DNA of 23,861 nt from IMG/VR virus record IMGVR_UViG_3300042446_000724, positions 1-23,861 of that record. One strand, written 5' to 3'. Source of the stretch: a virus. The translations under genes were made by a program, and so were the position numbers. How positions within the stretch are numbered: the first letter of the stretch is position 1; every line of letters starts with the position of its first letter. This document shows, piece by piece, positions 17-23,861 of the stretch. The notes below the pieces were generated by a model, which was given only the letters and a program-made list of their open reading frames with translations, was not told the origin of the DNA and did no database searches.

Positions 17-600
17 TTTCTGCGTTGTCCCTTGCTAACGGTTCTTAGTCCAGATGCAAGAAGCGCATAGCCGCAACGAGACAGGAGGCACGGCTCGTAA
101 ACCAGTGAGATACGAAAATGCGTCAAACCAATTGACAAAAGCTGGTAAAATCGGGACTACTGGAAAGACAGTGCTGCTTTAAGGTGCGCTTACATACCTT
201 ATGACACATCGGAAAGAAGGTGCCTTAGGCATTAGGAACTCACTGATAAAGAGGATTCCTGATGGACCCGCTAGTAGCGTCAAGCTAGCCCTGCATACGG
301 TAAGCAGGAATAAATGTTCTGCGGATGAAAACGCGAGATGCTCCCTCATAGAAGTTTGTAAACTTCAGCAAAGCTTGAGCGTTCACAATGCCGATCATGA
401 CAGGACACCCAATTTTTCAATGGGGGAGGTTAGCGAAACTCGCTAGTAACGTATGACTAGAAAACGAGCCGCTAACTGAACCCACCAATTTCCAATAAAT
501 AACCGTTGCCCTCATGAGGCACTCAAAACTGATATGAAGTGCACTTCGTAATTAAGAGTCTAGTTCCAGTTGCAGAAAGTTCGGAAGAACTAGAACGGTT
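17..600 (+). ncRNA. Large structured non-coding RNA candidate (~585 nt)
   Basis: No credible gene lies in the first 624 bases; the only long frame (201-446) has no phage-like protein features. The stretch is about 46% GC by hand count, clearly richer than the AT-rich genes after it. Hand-found helices include GTCCC 27-31 with GGGAC 153-157, enclosing TTGC 32-35/GCAA 56-59, AGCCG 69-73/CGGCT 91-95 and ACCAG 101-105/CTGGT 142-146. Others are TAAGGT 180-185/ACCTTA 196-201, CCTGC 290-294/GCAGG 304-308, GAAGTT 351-356/AACTTC 361-366 and GTTAGCG 429-435/CGCTAAC 470-476. At the 3' end AACCGTT 501-507 pairs with AACGGTT 594-600, and TCTAGTTC 559-566 with GAACTAGA 587-594 as an alternative sharing base 594. 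The 5' end (17-23) can pair with 572-578 in the loop of that last hairpin. Size and phage context recall the GOLLD and ROOL classes, but I cannot confirm either. Strand is inferred from the downstream genes; the true 5' end may lie outside the window. Confidence 0.5.
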
Positions 601-624
601 GCCAATCTCAAAACACACAAAAAA

Positions 625-9844: not shown

Positions 9845-9850
9845 AAACTT

Positions 9851-9940
9851 TCCTTTCATCGAGTGATGAATTAGGAATAGCCTCGTCAGAATAGCATCAT
9901 ATACAAATTGATGGACAGGCAAAACCTATCTTGGCGAGGC
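9851..9940 (+). ncRNA. Possible small structured RNA or 3' element after DUF932 gene
   Basis: Directly after the DUF932 stop, TTCATC (9855-9860) and GATGAA (9865-9870) form a hairpin with a GAGT loop, extended by TCCT 9851-9854 and AGGA 9873-9876. A second unit is closed by GCCTCG 9880-9885 and CGAGGC 9935-9940, with possible inner pairs ATAG 9891-9894/CTAT 9926-9929 and CATC 9895-9898/GATG 9910-9913. No T-run follows, so it is not a classical terminator. It could protect the mRNA end or regulate the downstream small genes. Weakly supported. Confidence 0.3.
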
Positions 9941-9956
9941 ATTTAATCTAAAGAAT

Positions 9957-10082
9957 ATGCAATTGTGGTTTATTTTTACTAATGGAAAATACTTGGCAAT
10001 CAAGCCAATCCATAAAAACAATCAATGGAAGCTACGCCTTCAATTACTTAAAATTAAATTAACAAAAAAACAAAATGATTAA
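9957..10082 (+). CDS. Possible 41-residue small protein
   Basis: A short frame starting MQLWFIFTNGKYLAIKP and ending in a basic LKIKLTKKQND, 41 residues. The leader (aaagaatATG) resembles those of neighbouring real genes, and its stop overlaps the start of the next gene by eight bases, as expected in this compact genome. Against it are the short length, absence of known motifs and AT-rich sequence in which such frames arise by chance. Otherwise the 9941-10074 stretch holds nothing I can identify. Confidence 0.35.
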   Translation: MQLWFIFTNGKYLAIKPIHKNNQWKLRLQLLKIKLTKKQND

Positions 10083-14588: not shown

Positions 14589-14664
14589 TGCGGGATGGAC
14601 AAGAGGTTAAGTCGCGGGTTTCATAAGCCTGAGATCGTCGGTTCAAATCCGACTCCCGCAACCA
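14589..14664 (+). tRNA. tRNA with CAT anticodon (Met, or Ile2 if modified)
   Basis: A 76-nt cloverleaf. The acceptor TGCGGGA 14589-14595 pairs perfectly with TCCCGCA 14654-14660, followed by discriminator A and encoded CCA. The D arm has GAC/GTC and the conserved GG. The anticodon arm CGGGT-TTCATAA-GCCTG carries T33 and anticodon CAT (14622-14624). The T arm GTCGG-TTCAAAT-CCGAC is perfect. The U1-A72 pair and lack of three G-C pairs next to the anticodon loop speak against an initiator tRNA. Elongator Met or lysidine-modified Ile-CAU cannot be separated by eye. Confidence 0.95.
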
Positions 14665-14672
14665 ATTTTATT

Positions 14673-14984
14673 TAGTCAGATACTGTTATTGGTCGATGAC
14701 AGTATTACTTGGTAGGTATTTGGTTACTGACTATGTAAAGCGCTGACATACCGCTTAGTATGTCCCTACACTCGCGCTCATTGCATTGAGGGCACTGCGT
14801 CAACTAAGGCGTATGTCGGGTAAACTGAAAAGTTCGGGAAACCGAAAGCAGTAAATGATCGACAGGTGAGCGACCTGAACAGTGGGTGCGAGTGTGGTAA
14901 TACCTGTGTAAGCACCTCGGTCATGTCTAAAGAATGAGAAATATCCGTCTGATTACGCCTTCGCAGACACGTAGAAAAATCAGA
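14673..14984 (+). ncRNA. Structured non-coding RNA downstream of the tRNA (~310 nt)
   Basis: The 344-base gap between the tRNA and thyX (14665-15008) is about 47% GC and folds well by hand. TAGTCAG 14673-14679/CTGACTA 14727-14733 stacks on ATACTGT 14680-14686/ACAGTAT 14699-14705. AAGCG 14738-14742/CGCTT 14752-14756 and GACATA 14745-14750/TATGTC 14759-14764 are either a pseudoknot or alternatives. ACACTCGC 14768-14775 pairs with GCGAGTGT 14888-14895 and encloses CACTG 14793-14797/CAGTG 14880-14884, CTCA 14777-14780/TGAG 14787-14790, ACTG 14824-14827/CAGT 14849-14852, TTCGG-GAAA-CCGAA (14833-14846, a GNRA tetraloop) and CAGGT 14863-14867/ACCTG 14873-14877. Near the 3' end TCTGATT 14948-14954 can pair with AATCAGA 14978-14984. 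It may be a stable trans-acting RNA or the leader of thyX. No known family recognised. Confidence 0.6.
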
Positions 14985-16825: not shown

Positions 16826-17188
16826 ATGCCTAAACTAAGAAAACCAAAACCCATCATTGATGAGGAAACTATTGCCGCACCACCAGAACTTGAGAATTAC
16901 AGCGAGCCTGACATTGTAGCGCAACAAGAAGACATAAATGGCGATTCTAGCCCTCTTCAGCAAGAGGTAGAGTCAACATACCCAAGCAGCCTATCCATGC
17001 CCTCATTGCCGCTTGTGACACCATCTACGGTGAAGCTAGAAGTATTGAGAGTAGTTCCATTGTTGATTGATGCCATTAAGTTCTTTGAGTCAAAAAAACC
17101 GCTGACTGCTATACGCCGTGAAATTATCAGGAAGCGCATAGAGTCAGCGAATATTTTGATCAATACAGTTAAGTCAATGGATACTTAA
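16826..17188 (+). CDS. Hypothetical protein
   Basis: A 120-residue protein. The first ~75 residues are Pro/Ser/Glu-rich and probably disordered; the C-terminal part (STVKLEVLRVVPLLIDAIKF, then TAIRREIIRKRIESANILI) is helical and basic. I recognise no family. The gene ends at 17188, overlapping the stop of the giant minus-strand gene by four bases, so transcripts from both sides converge here and no separate terminator is visible. The preceding structured leader ends about 18 bases before its ATG. Confidence 0.7.
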   Translation: MPKLRKPKPIIDEETIAAPPELENYSEPDIVAQQEDINGDSSPLQQEVESTYPSSLSMPSLPLVTPSTVKLEVLRVVPLLIDAIKFFESKKPLTAIRREIIRKRIESANILINTVKSMDT

Positions 17189-20100
17189 TAGGATTCATCC
17201 ATTCCTTCTTCCCTAAAAGGCGAGGGAACTCCATAGTAATCTATGAATCCCTTGTCTTTTAGTTCTTTGTATCCCCACCCACCTTCTTCTGCGTGGCGTT
17301 TTGGTGTGCGACCTCTACCCTCCCTTGTTCCGCTCATCTGATTGACTAGTCCGTAAATAAATTCAGTATTACTAATACCATTAAATCCATCTTTAGGAGT
17401 AAATCTGTTTTGCAAAAGAGCAGCCATATTGATTGCGGTCGAGTAAGGCTCTTGAAGAACACTTTGCAATGGATTCATTCTTTCCGTATCGCGAACAGAA
17501 TCTTTCATTTCATACCAGTCATCTTCAGAATTACCAGTGAAGATTGTAGCAGTATCTTTTGATGCTGATTTAACCAATGCTTGAGTTGGACCAAATGAGA
17601 ACAAAGCCCCTAATCCAGCTGGCGTTATACCAACTGCATCCCATGCTGCATCTTGACCCACATCTTTAACCAAGCTTAAGTAAGCGCTGTTGTGTCCATC
17701 TTTTGAGAAATTAGGGTCATTCACAAGCATGTAGCTAGGGAATAACTGTTCTTTCAATATGTTCCACATCCAAGGAGATTCTTCATTCCATTGAGTTAAT
17801 GACTCAACATAACGCGAAGCTCTTTCTCCAATATCCTCATCATCATCATCATCAAACATTTCAGCCAAAGCGCTAGCAATGTAAGCTCCAAATTGGGAGA
17901 TCGCAGCAGCCCTAAATAAGAAGAACATACTGTTTTGAATCATCGTTCCAGCAATGTTTTCAACACCCTCATTAATTGTTTCTTTATCAAGGTTGTCATA
18001 CTTGCCAAAAGCTTTAGAAATAAACATTTCAGCATACATAGCTCTATTTGCGTTGACTGTAGCGCTGTGATTACCGTGTCTTACAAAACCATTTAGCAAC
18101 AAACTACGAACTGGCATACGCTTATCAATATTGTAGATTCCAGCTTTTTTAGATTTGTCTCCAAGTCCCATGAAATCTGTAACCATCATGTCTGCTCTAG
18201 TTTTAGACAATGTGCTGATTTCATCTGGGTTCATTTTGAACATTTCCTGAATTGTAGCAGGAGCGTTTTCCATGTCCTGCTTTAATCTATTGTGCAACTC
18301 AAATGCGTAAATAGCTTTTACCATTACACGTTCTGGAGCACCAATAAGAACATCCAAACTTCCTTCAGCAAGATCGTTGAATTTTGCCATTGCGTAACGC
18401 AAACCATATTTAATTCGATTCTCTCTATGATAGCGAGCAATTTTGATTTGAGTTGAACGAATGTTAGCTCCTTCGGCTCTATGCTTATAGCTTGTAACAC
18501 TGTTCTCTTTAACAAAATTAGCCATTTGCGGATCATTTTTAAGAGCCAGCCATAAAGCTTCAGAATATCGCGATATATCCTTGTCTGAATAACCAAGCAT
18601 TTTACCAAACAAGATATTTGCACCCTTGCTTGCAGCAGGAACAAAGCCGTTAAGGATTGGTTGCCAGAAGCTAATTAGTTGTTTTGCAAGAACAAGCAAA
18701 GTGGAGAATTTAATTGCATTGTTAAATGCGTTTTCCATTAACTCTTGAGGCATGTCATTTCTGATTTGTTTCTCAATAGTATTCATAATGTAAGCCGAAA
18801 TGTATTCATAATTTTGACCAGAGTTGTAAACATTTTCTGCAACTCCGATTTCTTTAAGCATACCTCCCTCAGTAATCATGTCTCCGTTATTTTTACGGAC
18901 AATACGACCCATTAGCTTTCTTATCACATTATAAGTAGGAGCCATATAGGTTCTATACAATGCATCGTTAGCTAGTGAGTCAGGCGCTGTAAACGGATTC
19001 AAATCAATTGGTCTTAAGATGTTCCTATCTTTTTCTGACTTGTTTTTTGATTTTCTGTTTACGAAATTTAATGTTGAGCTTTCAAAAGAAATAAACTCAT
19101 CAATGTCAATCGTTTCTTGGTTTACATCGTAACTAGTAGTGTCCAATGGATTTCTGAGATAACTAAATCTCAAAGGAACAGTAGAGTAACTAGTTCTATA
19201 AACCTTCTCAAATGGGTCATTACCAGTCAGAGTTTTGTCTTTACTTCCAGTTTCAGTTCTCATGTCTTTACTGGAAAATACGTTTGCAATTCTATGAGCA
19301 TCAGTAATTGAACCAAATTCTTTTAGAAGCGCATCACTGTATTCAGTAACAGCAGCTATTTCAGATTCACTCATGCCTTTTTGCAAATCACGAATCATAT
19401 TGTTAATCAAAACCTGTTGATAACTCTCACCAGATGGAGTTTTTGAGTTGGCAATAGGTCCCCTTACTGCACTAGCTAAAGTAGTTGCATCGCGTTTAAT
19501 GATTTCAAAAATATCAATAACAGCTTGAGCCTCTTTGTCTTGTTTGTAAGATTTGTTGTAAAGTTTGTTTACAACTTTAATACCAATACTAGAAGCTTTT
19601 TGCAATTTACTTTTACCAGCAATACTCGCTTTGTGATCATTTACACCATTAATGAATGATGTTGCCCATTCCCAAGCTTTCATGCCCGGTCTATTACCAG
19701 AAAGCGCATCTCTAGTTTCGGCTTCAGCAATACCTCTTAATGACGCAATGATATATGCCTTCGCGCCATTCATAAAATTATTATTAAGGTTCTTAGATGC
19801 TTGGCCAATGCGGTCTTGGAAGTCTTGATATTCAGAAGTATATCTGTTCTTACCACTGGCTCCATTAATTCCGTGATCAAGCATGCCAACAAGAGATAAA
19901 GCCTCAAGATAAGCACCATGATTGCCACGGAACTTGCCACGCATCAAAGCATTTTGGTGATAAGTCATGCTGTATAGAGCATTATCAGTCTTGGTTGCGT
20001 TAAATGCTCCAGTAATAAGTTTTTCAAGAATGTTTCTACCGTAAATAGCAGAGAACAAACTTGCATAATTGTGAGATATGTCAGCCTCGTATACTGCTTT

Positions 20101-23100
20101 TGCCAAAATGAATGATGGAGACTGTGATGAATCTATAATATTGTATAGCGAAGCCATTGATTTCTCTGCTTTGCCTATTACAGCGCCGTATTTAGATTTC
20201 TTGCTATCTAGTTCACCGCTGTGAAGCATCATCAAAATGTCTTGTATTTGCGCTTCATTCATCATGATTGCATGACTTTGCGCTGATTTAGAGTTTAGGA
20301 AATTGTTTTCATTTATCACGATTTCGTAAGCTTTTTGCGCAATAGATCTTTTTTCAGAAGGTGAATACTGATCTTTTTTCTTACTCAAAAAGTTCATGCC
20401 AGAATTCTGCAAGATCGGTTTGTTGTTTGCGTCTGAAGCAAAAGCATAAACAGAATCAAACAACTCATTTACGTTTGTGTCATCAAGTCTATTAAACTCT
20501 TTCATGACGCTAACAATTCCAAGACCTTTTGCAAATGCGCTACGATCACGGTTAATTGCTTGCTTCAAGAAGTAATCAAGATGATTTGCTTTAACTTTTT
20601 GCAAGAACTCGCGCACCGTTACTTTAGTGGTGATTCCAGCAGCAGTTGCCAAACCATCATTAATTTCTTTATCTAATTCAATTTTAACTGTTTTCTTGTC
20701 TAATGTTCTGAGCGGCTGCCCAGGCATTAATGGAGGTATTGTTGCAGCATTGAAAATGATGTTTTTCAATCTCTCGTCAACACTCCACGATCCATTCTCA
20801 CGTCTCTTTAGTTTGGCTAATTCAGTTTTAGCATCTCTGCTGTAAAGAATGTAGGATGTTTCATTTTTGGTTTCAATTTCATTTGTTGGCAAGAATACAG
20901 ATTTTGAGTGCGCATCATTAACAAACAATGCTAAACCTCTAAGTCGTTGCCTAAGGGATTCACGTCTTGCGTGTCTTCTAATATTAACCGTATTAACAGC
21001 TTCTTTGTTGGCGCTTGAATTCTCCACATCTACACCATTTTGAACATCAGCTGGTTTTGTAACTGTGGCTGGTTCATAATTCATTGCGTCCATATCACGC
21101 ACAGAAATACCAAACAATTGCACCGCTTTACCATCAGCTTCATTAATCTGATTGTCAAAAACATCGTCAGCTAGAGTTGCCATGTCTTCAGTAAGTGCAT
21201 TGCGCAATCTTGCAATCTCAAGGACATTTTCAATATTCTGATAAATGTCAAAAGCACCTGCAAAAACGTCAATATGTTCATTAATGTGGCGATACATTTC
21301 CTGACCTTCTTTTTCAATGAATAATCGCATAGCTTCATTGATAACTCTTGTAGTATTCAATGCTTCATCAAATTGCACGGCGTATAATGGATTCGACTTT
21401 TTAAGCTGCTCATCAAGAGTAATATCAATAACAACTTGGTGCGTTGGTGCCTTATTATTTAATAATCTTTGTTCAGTAATTTTATCACTAAAGCGATACT
21501 CTTTCTGGAGTGTCATTAACGTTCTTGTGTTTAACTGAGTGCTCTTACGCATTGAATCAAGTGATCTTTGAATTCCATTGCGAACATCAATCAGTTTTTC
21601 AATTTCTCGCGCAACTAACCCAATTCCAATGTTAGCCATATTTTGATTTTCCATTACGGTTTCAGCATCCAACTCCGCAGCAGAATCAAAAGCAGAAGCT
21701 AAATCAGAAAACACAACTTCATCTCTCAACTCAAAAAGCAAACTTTCATTGCGAACCAAATGCTCAATAACTTTATTCTTGATAAATCCAAAATTGGTTT
21801 GACCATCAATAGCTTTAACAAGCGATCTGGCTATTTCATTTCGTTTAGTTACCCCAAGGCGCTTAAATGCTTGAGCCATAACAGACTCACCACCAGCTTG
21901 TTTTTGCAGTTGCCTGATTTGCGCCACAATTGCTAATTTATCTCTATTAAGGAAATCAATTTTCTGTTTAGATTTAGGATTGCCTTTGAGTTTTACAATT
22001 TCTTTATTAATAGAAACGAGTTCTTGTTTGAGGTAATCAATGTCTTGCGACTTATCACCAACTTTGTTTTCAAAATCTCTAATTTGATTTTCAATAGCAG
22101 TTTGAACATCAAAATTTTCTCTATACTCTTTAATGAGTTCGTCAATAAACTTATTGCTTTGAACATTAGTTAATACAGCTTGATACAATCCTTTGTTTCT
22201 GCCGTTAATTAGTCCTCTATTAAGGTAAGCTTTTGTTTCCGCAATAAAGTCATTAATGTTGTCTAAGTTCACTTCACTGTATTCAATAACAGAAAGCGCC
22301 AATGGATTAAACTTGTTTTCAATAAATGAAGTCAATTCAGGTGATACCTCAAGAAGTCCGTCAGTTTTCTCAACAACATTTCCAATAGCTAGCGCCAACT
22401 GATTTCCATAAATTAAAAGTTTTGAGTTACTGTTTCGAGCTAGCGTATTTCTCCTATCCAATAATTTTTTCAATCCATCATTGAATTTGAATGGATCTCT
22501 TGCTAAGTATTCTTTATCGGCTAACAAATTAACAACAACTTGATCAATTTTTGAAATCTCAGAAAGGTTTCTTTTGTAATCTGAAAGATATTTCTTTTTA
22601 GCTTTAGTAGCGCCAGCTTTATTAACTCGATAACTGTAAGATTCCCGTTTATTAGCAAGGTCTAGTATTGTTGCTGTTAATGATTCAGCAGTAGCAATTA
22701 AGTTTGCAGCAGTTTTAGAATGCAGGTTTTTATTTTGATTGAGAATGAAATTAAGTATTTCTTCTCTTCCTTTTGTTTGCCATTCTTTAATCTGTGAATC
22801 AATATTCAAAATATCGTTATCAGCGCTATCCATATTGTTCTTACGGATCTGCTCGATAAGTTTAATGTTGTCTTGCGCTTCATTCATCAAGTCATTCCCA
22901 ACAAGCTCTACTACACCTTTGCGTAATTGGCGCATAATAGATACGTCATTGTCAGTCGCGTCCATAGTGTCGATTGTCACAGAATTTTCTTGTTTTGCTG
23001 AATTAAATGTTCTTTTAAGTAAAAAGCTTCCATGTTCAGTTGCTGAAATCATTGCGTTCAAGAATTTCTGTATTCTTCTTCTTTCAAAAATCTCAGTAGA

Positions 23101-23861
23101 AGGAGTTTTGTTGTAATAGTAATTAAGCATGTTCCCTTCAGGCATAATATCAGCTTTAATTGGGCGAACAAAAACTGTAGGATTGTTTCTAGCTTTTAAT
23201 AATTCATAACTTGATTGCGGAGCTAGAAGTTCAGCTGGGTAAGCTTCGTCAAATATGGAAATTGTTTCAATGTCAGCATCTTGCGGAGTAAGAGAATCCA
23301 AAGAACCAATTAACTCAGAGATAATGTAACGATAAGTATGATCAGGAGTTTCGTAGAATTCCTGCATAGCGCCTTTAGCCTGGCTAATTTGCTCATAGGT
23401 GTATTCTTGCCCAGTTGCTTTATTGCTATTCATATTCTGAATAAGCAGCATTGCGTCAATACCAGATTTTATTTTTCTAGGAGAAGCCATCTGTATAGCA
23501 TCATTAACTTTCTTGAAGCTTCTTGCTGATGTGTCTTCTTTGGCAATACCAGTAAAAAATGTCTCCTCAAATGCTTTTTGGAAATCAGCAACTGTAGTCC
23601 CATAAATAGAATCCATTATATCGGACTCATTAAAATCATTAACATTATCTGGATCAAATTCAGTAGGTGTTTGCCCTGTTCTACTTAATTCAATCTCAGT
23701 CATTTTTTGGCTTCTAATTTCCGTAGAAGAAAACGCTTTTATTGCGCGATTCATTGCTTCTTTACGTAGTGGAGAAAGTTCAAAGCTAATTAAGTTAGCG
23801 CCACTACCTCCAATGCTGTTTAGCAATCTGTAAGCATCAGGATTTGACAACACATCTGAAA
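17185..23861 (-). CDS. Giant phage protein, probably virion/ejection (large polyvalent type), 5'-truncated by window edge
   Basis: One open frame of more than 2,220 codons. The first start codon inside the window is a GTG at 23853, but the frame stays open to the edge, so the true N-terminus lies outside. Residue numbers here count from that GTG. Long helical, coiled-coil-like stretches occur around 590-660 (KQELVSINKEIVKLKGNPKS). The C-terminal third holds hydrophobic helices near 1720-1740 (KQLISFWQPILNGF) and 1975-1994 (FFLFRAAAISQFGAYIASAL), then an acidic DDDDDED near 2001. The region ADMMVTDFMGLGD...VRSLLLNGFVRHG resembles the C-terminal domains of large polyvalent or internal virion proteins of phages. 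I see no RNA polymerase, protease or muramidase motif. It likely enters the cell with phage DNA or builds part of the ejection machinery; this is inference. Confidence 0.75.
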   Translation of the reverse strand, partial: SDVLSNPDAYRLLNSIGGSGANLISFELSPLRKEAMNRAIKAFSSTEIRSQKMTEIELSRTGQTPTEFDPDNVNDFNESDIMDSIYGTTVADFQKAFEETFFTGIAKEDTSARSFKKVNDAIQMASPRKIKSGIDAMLLIQNMNSNKATGQEYTYEQISQAKGAMQEFYETPDHTYRYIISELIGSLDSLTPQDADIETISIFDEAYPAELLAPQSSYELLKARNNPTVFVRPIKADIMPEGNMLNYYYNKTPSTEIFERRRIQKFLNAMISATEHGSFLLKRTFNSAKQENSVTIDTMDATDNDVSIMRQLRKGVVELVGNDLMNEAQDNIKLIEQIRKNNMDSADNDILNIDSQIKEWQTKGREEILNFILNQNKNLHSKTAANLIATAESLTATILDLANKRESYSYRVNKAGATKAKKKYLSDYKRNLSEISKIDQVVVNLLADKEYLARDPFKFNDGLKKLLDRRNTLARNSNSKLLIYGNQLALAIGNVVEKTDGLLEVSPELTSFIENKFNPLALSVIEYSEVNLDNINDFIAETKAYLNRGLINGRNKGLYQAVLTNVQSNKFIDELIKEYRENFDVQTAIENQIRDFENKVGDKSQDIDYLKQELVSINKEIVKLKGNPKSKQKIDFLNRDKLAIVAQIRQLQKQAGGESVMAQAFKRLGVTKRNEIARSLVKAIDGQTNFGFIKNKVIEHLVRNESLLFELRDEVVFSDLASAFDSAAELDAETVMENQNMANIGIGLVAREIEKLIDVRNGIQRSLDSMRKSTQLNTRTLMTLQKEYRFSDKITEQRLLNNKAPTHQVVIDITLDEQLKKSNPLYAVQFDEALNTTRVINEAMRLFIEKEGQEMYRHINEHIDVFAGAFDIYQNIENVLEIARLRNALTEDMATLADDVFDNQINEADGKAVQLFGISVRDMDAMNYEPATVTKPADVQNGVDVENSSANKEAVNTVNIRRHARRESLRQRLRGLALFVNDAHSKSVFLPTNEIETKNETSYILYSRDAKTELAKLKRRENGSWSVDERLKNIIFNAATIPPLMPGQPLRTLDKKTVKIELDKEINDGLATAAGITTKVTVREFLQKVKANHLDYFLKQAINRDRSAFAKGLGIVSVMKEFNRLDDTNVNELFDSVYAFASDANNKPILQNSGMNFLSKKKDQYSPSEKRSIAQKAYEIVINENNFLNSKSAQSHAIMMNEAQIQDILMMLHSGELDSKKSKYGAVIGKAEKSMASLYNIIDSSQSPSFILAKAVYEADISHNYASLFSAIYGRNILEKLITGAFNATKTDNALYSMTYHQNALMRGKFRGNHGAYLEALSLVGMLDHGINGASGKNRYTSEYQDFQDRIGQASKNLNNNFMNGAKAYIIASLRGIAEAETRDALSGNRPGMKAWEWATSFINGVNDHKASIAGKSKLQKASSIGIKVVNKLYNKSYKQDKEAQAVIDIFEIIKRDATTLASAVRGPIANSKTPSGESYQQVLINNMIRDLQKGMSESEIAAVTEYSDALLKEFGSITDAHRIANVFSSKDMRTETGSKDKTLTGNDPFEKVYRTSYSTVPLRFSYLRNPLDTTSYDVNQETIDIDEFISFESSTLNFVNRKSKNKSEKDRNILRPIDLNPFTAPDSLANDALYRTYMAPTYNVIRKLMGRIVRKNNGDMITEGGMLKEIGVAENVYNSGQNYEYISAYIMNTIEKQIRNDMPQELMENAFNNAIKFSTLLVLAKQLISFWQPILNGFVPAASKGANILFGKMLGYSDKDISRYSEALWLALKNDPQMANFVKENSVTSYKHRAEGANIRSTQIKIARYHRENRIKYGLRYAMAKFNDLAEGSLDVLIGAPERVMVKAIYAFELHNRLKQDMENAPATIQEMFKMNPDEISTLSKTRADMMVTDFMGLGDKSKKAGIYNIDKRMPVRSLLLNGFVRHGNHSATVNANRAMYAEMFISKAFGKYDNLDKETINEGVENIAGTMIQNSMFFLFRAAAISQFGAYIASALAEMFDDDDDEDIGERASRYVESLTQWNEESPWMWNILKEQLFPSYMLVNDPNFSKDGHNSAYLSLVKDVGQDAAWDAVGITPAGLGALFSFGPTQALVKSASKDTATIFTGNSEDDWYEMKDSVRDTERMNPLQSVLQEPYSTAINMAALLQNRFTPKDGFNGISNTEFIYGLVNQMSGTREGRGRTPKRHAEEGGWGYKELKDKGFIDYYGVPSPFREEGMDESY

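Follow-up and report, generated by a model that had tools for sequence, protein, structure and literature searches.

Bases 19-603 of the window (the whole stretch analysed, an entire linear IMG/VR virus record of 23,861 bp) contain what is almost certainly a member of a real structured RNA family. Eight further distinct uncultured phages share material from the conserved part (best estimate about 19-410), which divides into three separable modules (A, M1 and C). These form a chain of independently folded units with covarying stems and near-constant loops (Table 1). The 5' end of the RNA may lie outside the window, upstream of base 1. As a whole, the stretch is tentatively read as encoding a large structured RNA, noncoding and free-standing, that belongs to a lineage of uncultured phages with an ERF recombinase. 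It would work in trans, docking translation components as a scaffold or decoy.

Relatives were gathered by exact search with the hairpin CCTGCATACGGTAAGCAGG, by ERF-protein search and with degenerate patterns. Together with the window, the eight relatives (L015, L011, L012, L010, L088, L089, L091 and L107) make up nine phage types; the same DNA was also present in other records (L002-L004, L014 and L016 are identical to L015, L005 to L011, L087 to L012 and L090 to L010). The source habitats are presumably freshwater, as read from the record names. Nearly all relatives are phages with common ERF, exonuclease, SSB-like or primase-helicase genes, and the replication and recombination genes of the window comprise an AAA ATPase, an exonuclease, an ERF annealing protein, an RNA ligase and a primase-helicase. 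The adjacent ATPase, used as a protein query, returned no relatives, and none were found among the named phages and plasmids searched. L013 belongs to the same phage group and lacks A, M1 and C. L006 was rejected as a relative (it has a single hairpin in common with the window, probably by chance), as were 15 bacterial-genome matches to the P3/P4 loop pattern, in which the stems are absent and which look like chance.

The initial annotation stated that no gene fits the start of the window, and bases 1-624 indeed contain none. The only plus-strand ORF of at least 60 aa in this region (201-446, 81 aa) is contradicted as a conserved entity by the M1 homologues, because their lengths (91-121 nt) differ by non-multiples of three and their changes preserve pairing; the region is noncoding. 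The GC content, described earlier as raised, is higher than just downstream (45% vs 30-39%), but since other parts of the window reach 44-49%, composition alone is a weak argument. Single-sequence folding was only mildly better than in shuffled sequences (z -1.75, matched by 1 of 20 shuffles; z -0.56 on the minus strand). The case therefore rests on comparison.

Table 1. Positions and module orders of the structured RNA in the window and its relatives.
Feature	Record	Position	Strand	Description
Module A	window	19..172	+	5' multibranch domain, then GAAAGA-loop hairpin 159-162/169-172; from comparison
A helices	window	H1 27-31/153-157; H2 32-35/56-59; H3 69-73/91-95; H4 101-106/141-146; H5 122-126/132-136		
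Module M1	window	202..311	+	four hairpins, P1-P4; eight distinct homologues, covariation
M1 P1	window	207-211/218-222	+	GAAAGA loop; 211-218 is G-A in the window
M1 P2	window	230-234/260-264	+	variable
M1 P3	window	270-274/285-289	+	loop region TAGCGTCAAG in the window; described across the module as UAGCGUCAAG
M1 P4	window	290-294/304-308	+	loop ATACGGTAA in the window; described across the module as AUACGGUAA
Module C	window	315..409	+	closing stem 315-321/401-407 (TGTTCTG/CAGGACA), inner CGG 322-324/CCG 391-393, tail CC 408-409
Window-specific domain, putative	window	421..486	+	TGGG 421-424/CCCA 481-484, GTTAGC 429-434/GCTAAC 471-476, CTCG 439-442/CGAG 465-468, CTAG 443-446/CTAG 457-460, then CC; all seen in the sequence
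Window-specific 3' domain	window	501..603	+	AACCGTT 501-507/AACGGTT 594-600, inner TCTAGTTC 559-566/GAACTAGA 587-594
Module M2	window	14763..14902	+	covarying stem, invariant internal loop TGAGGGCA / TGAGCGACCTGA
Module M2	L015	5308-5442		
23S helix 43 copy	L015	5442-5474		near-exact
Extra M1 copy	L010	6960-7055		
Extra M1 copy	L089	8559-8651		
Extra M1 copies	L011	9145-9258; 9631-9752		
Extra M1 copy	L012	11424-11537		
Module order	window			A-P1-M1-C
Module order	L088			A-P1-M2-T-arm-M1-C and further closed domains; about 1.6 kb noncoding
Module order	L015			M2-H43-M1-C
Module order	L107			A-P1-M2-P1-C; rest of M1 absent

Covariation in relatives had been proposed as the test of a large structured RNA, and the stems of A, M1 and C do covary. 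For each of the three modules the covariation score was reached by none of 500 shuffles, with a caveat that these controls ignore relatedness and overstate independence, several of the nine phage types being linked by descent or recombination. Module A is common to the window, L011, L012, L088 and L107. In these five sequences H3, the inner pairs of H4, and H5 are 100% paired, and both partners have changed in 6 of 13 pairs; H2 also covaries. The multi-branched 5' domain of the initial annotation, closed by GTCCC/GGGAC, is borne out: this helix (H1) pairs at five of five positions in the window, L011 and L107 and at four of five in L012, the stems within it exist and covary, and in L088 it probably pairs in another register. 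In the M1 alignment 95% of cells pair and both sides changed in half of the pairs (10/20), and when the partner strand is shifted by one column pairing falls to 19-34%. The covariance models recover their seeds across about 1.1 Mb, and the M1 model additionally detected five weaker copies in four relatives (E 2.5e-6 to 0.0017), none of which had been used in building it. Module C is represented by seven homologous units in six phages (4/11 pairs changed on both sides). Its 7 bp closing stem shows compensatory changes and is followed by ACC, and the fourth pair of this stem is an invariant U-G wobble (7/7).

The remaining part of the RNA, 411-603, found no homologue among the relatives. It holds two further closed domains. 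For the first (421..486) closure is suggested solely by its likeness to the closed units of L088, and in the second both stems (501-507/594-600 and 559-566/587-594) are exact complements in the window sequence alone. A pseudoknot had been suggested between 17-23 and 572-578. The complementarity is exact (TTTCTGC/GCAGAAA) but probably due to chance, because L011, L012 and L107 keep the 5' strand without the partner.

The architecture of the RNA is mosaic. The noncoding stretches measure about 0.4 to 1.6 kb, modules were swapped, duplicated or lost, and homologous modules stand at unequal spacing in distinct phages. In L088 (4235-5850, minus strand; ~1.6 kb noncoding) roughly seven closed domains can be recognised by eye. 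Each ends in a ~7 bp stem, after which come ACC(A) and a CC linker rich in U, and one of them has a canonical T-arm although no tRNA can be called; the window copy follows a similar pattern. Another module, M2, shares a noncoding stretch with A, M1 or C in L015, L088, L091 and L107. It may itself constitute an independent structured RNA motif: in an alignment of 17 distinct sequences 17 of the 24 predicted pairs covary. M2 is widespread in IMG/VR contigs (L108-L124) and absent from Rfam 15; a search of about 600 bacterial genomes, run without a positive control, found none. Two of the M2 contigs encode a further known RNA, a permuted tmRNA in L109 (11241-11646) and a hammerhead ribozyme of type II in L119 (8813-8877). 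Elsewhere in the window, a gap of ~230 bases (9845-10074) contains no convincing gene and none of A, M1, C and M2, and one uninterrupted ORF, 2,222 codons long, occupies 17185-23853 of the minus strand.

Such an architecture bears on whether the RNA is an ornate self-assembling one. GOLLD and ROOL form 14-mers and 8-mers, and the contacts between their subunits are conserved (PMC12286853). A comparable homo-oligomer or cage, joined through the constant hairpin loops, is unlikely here. The size class and the phage setting are alike, and modular hairpins with constant loops would suit loop-loop or A-minor contacts. However, there is no sequence or covariance match, and the overall architecture of a symmetric cage would be expected to be constrained, whereas the relatives differ in length by the range given above and in the modules they contain.

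The position of the RNA relative to genes varies between phages. In the window it precedes the ATPase, the first plus-strand gene (start: 625), lying 22 bases upstream on the same strand, and it could be a leader of that gene in the window phage. In L010, L011, L012 and L089 it is found 3' of an SSB-like gene, in L088 and L091 one gene further, and in L107 after the primase-helicase. What follows 3' of the RNA is an AAA ATPase gene in the window, a gene for an HNH protein in L012 and small ORFs in L011 and L015. A cis-acting leader or 3' element controlling neighbouring replication and recombination genes would fit the placement of the relatives' RNAs between genes of the recombination/replication region, as well as the TTTAG-N3-7-CTAAA element often seen near RNA ends. 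Because different phages have different genes behind the RNA, with no conserved link to one downstream gene, a leader for one gene is disfavoured. In addition, the RNA is far bigger and more elaborate than usual leaders, and a promoter and terminator scan of the window RNA stretch gave no match better than chance, so that cis control is considered improbable. The small TTTAG-N3-7-CTAAA hairpin might itself serve these phages as a promoter or as a signal for processing. It is present in the window (2877, 9832, 14096, 16697), L010, L011, L012, L013, L015, L089 and L107, in most of these phages at 4-7 copies per 10-24 kb (vs at most 0.35 in shuffled sequences), and it is absent from two other ERF phages.

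In the relatives, the proximity to genes for ERF, exonuclease, primase-helicase and SSB-like proteins might also be expected of a DNA-level element (a recombination site or an origin of replication) with hairpins that function in single-stranded form. This is very unlikely. U-G wobbles are tolerated, including the invariant one in C, which argues for RNA over single-stranded DNA; a modular structure spanning hundreds of bases is larger than known origins, and the position is not fixed to one gene.

Pieces resembling the translation apparatus lie within the noncoding stretches of some relatives. In L015, helix 43 of 23S rRNA, which belongs to the GTPase-associated centre, is copied almost exactly (93.8% identity over 32 nt to the 23S rRNA of L151, E 6.5e-10; profile match E 2.3e-6). 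Canonical T-arms outside called tRNAs were detected in L088 and L091 (one shared copy) and in L089. In total the set has four T-arms, including that of the real tRNA of the window (tRNA-Met 14589-14664, the only tRNA called there), vs 0.12 expected in shuffles. Both the T-arm and the rRNA helix are missing from the window RNA copy, and in searches with 16S and 23S profiles at E up to 5 L015 alone matched. Wholesale rRNA mimicry was rejected: likenesses of 10-20 nt to 16S h35/h36 and 23S H44 were within shuffled expectation or failed the profile test, and those to 16S 1080-1106 and 23S 1097-1116 were no better than shuffled sequence. A tmRNA-like motif noticed by eye in L089 and L088 was not confirmed by ARAGORN or Rfam.

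Returning to the preferred reading, the RNA probably works in trans and would serve as a scaffold or decoy. Loops that stay constant while their stems drift point to docking of protein or RNA; candidate sites would be the loops GAAAGA, AGCGUCAAG and AUACGGUAA together with the closing-stem/ACC ends. Parts of the host translation apparatus are proposed as partners because T-arms in three relatives and helix 43 in one occur in the same noncoding stretch, although docking onto translation components, the leading mechanism, is rather doubtful. Still somewhat less probable is the full picture in which a chain of exchangeable folded modules, partly copied from functional parts of tRNA and rRNA, would bind and redirect host translation during infection. 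The recognisable T-arms and rRNA helix in some relatives and the mosaic structure could alternatively mean that degenerate host or phage tRNA and rRNA pieces were gathered by recombination and have no present function, but this is most improbable, being largely refuted by the strong covariation and constant loops, which indicate ongoing selection, and A, M1 and C match no tRNA or rRNA model.

Noncoding RNAs that are both large and structured are rare; the majority have been found in phages or mobile elements and have no known function. The initial annotation considered a divergent GOLLD or ROOL or a new class. A search of bases 1-700 gave zero Rfam 15 matches at E up to 5, ROOL (RF03087) included, and the modules of the relatives match no Rfam family. 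The GOLLD covariance model (RF02032) did not match the window or the eight relatives at E up to 10 (control genomes: only sub-threshold matches). The ROOL model did not match any of the nine records at E up to 10 either, a result that is weak alone since no control genome matched. A divergent GOLLD or ROOL is thus not upheld, and for a covarying RNA that matches no Rfam family a new class is the better reading. The family appears to be new while its kind, large structured phage RNA, is already known; no description of these RNAs was found in the open-access literature searched, a scope that leaves out most subscription journals.

The RNA resembles ROOL in being ~0.6 kb long, in occurring in phages or mobile elements, and in its many covarying stems and modular look, but it lacks a covariance match and its relatives vary greatly in length and module content. 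With GOLLD it shares being a large structured RNA of lake-derived phages, but it does not match the model, its motifs differ and a fixed 3' core is absent. OLE, raiA and HEARO RNAs are likewise large structured bacterial RNAs; unlike these, there is no Rfam match, and an OLE-associated protein or IscB/IsrB gene was not noticed nearby. Phage tRNA and tmRNA clusters are similar in the closing stems of ~7 bp followed by ACC(A) and in the T-arms of some relatives, but ARAGORN and Rfam call none there, tRNA and tmRNA models do not match within 1-624, and A, M1 and C lack a T-arm. The family is absent from Rfam 15 and backed by covariation. Its open modularity sets it apart from GOLLD and ROOL and allows the parts to be tested singly, and the helix 43 copy and T-arms in relatives provide a concrete functional hint towards translation that other ornate RNAs lack.
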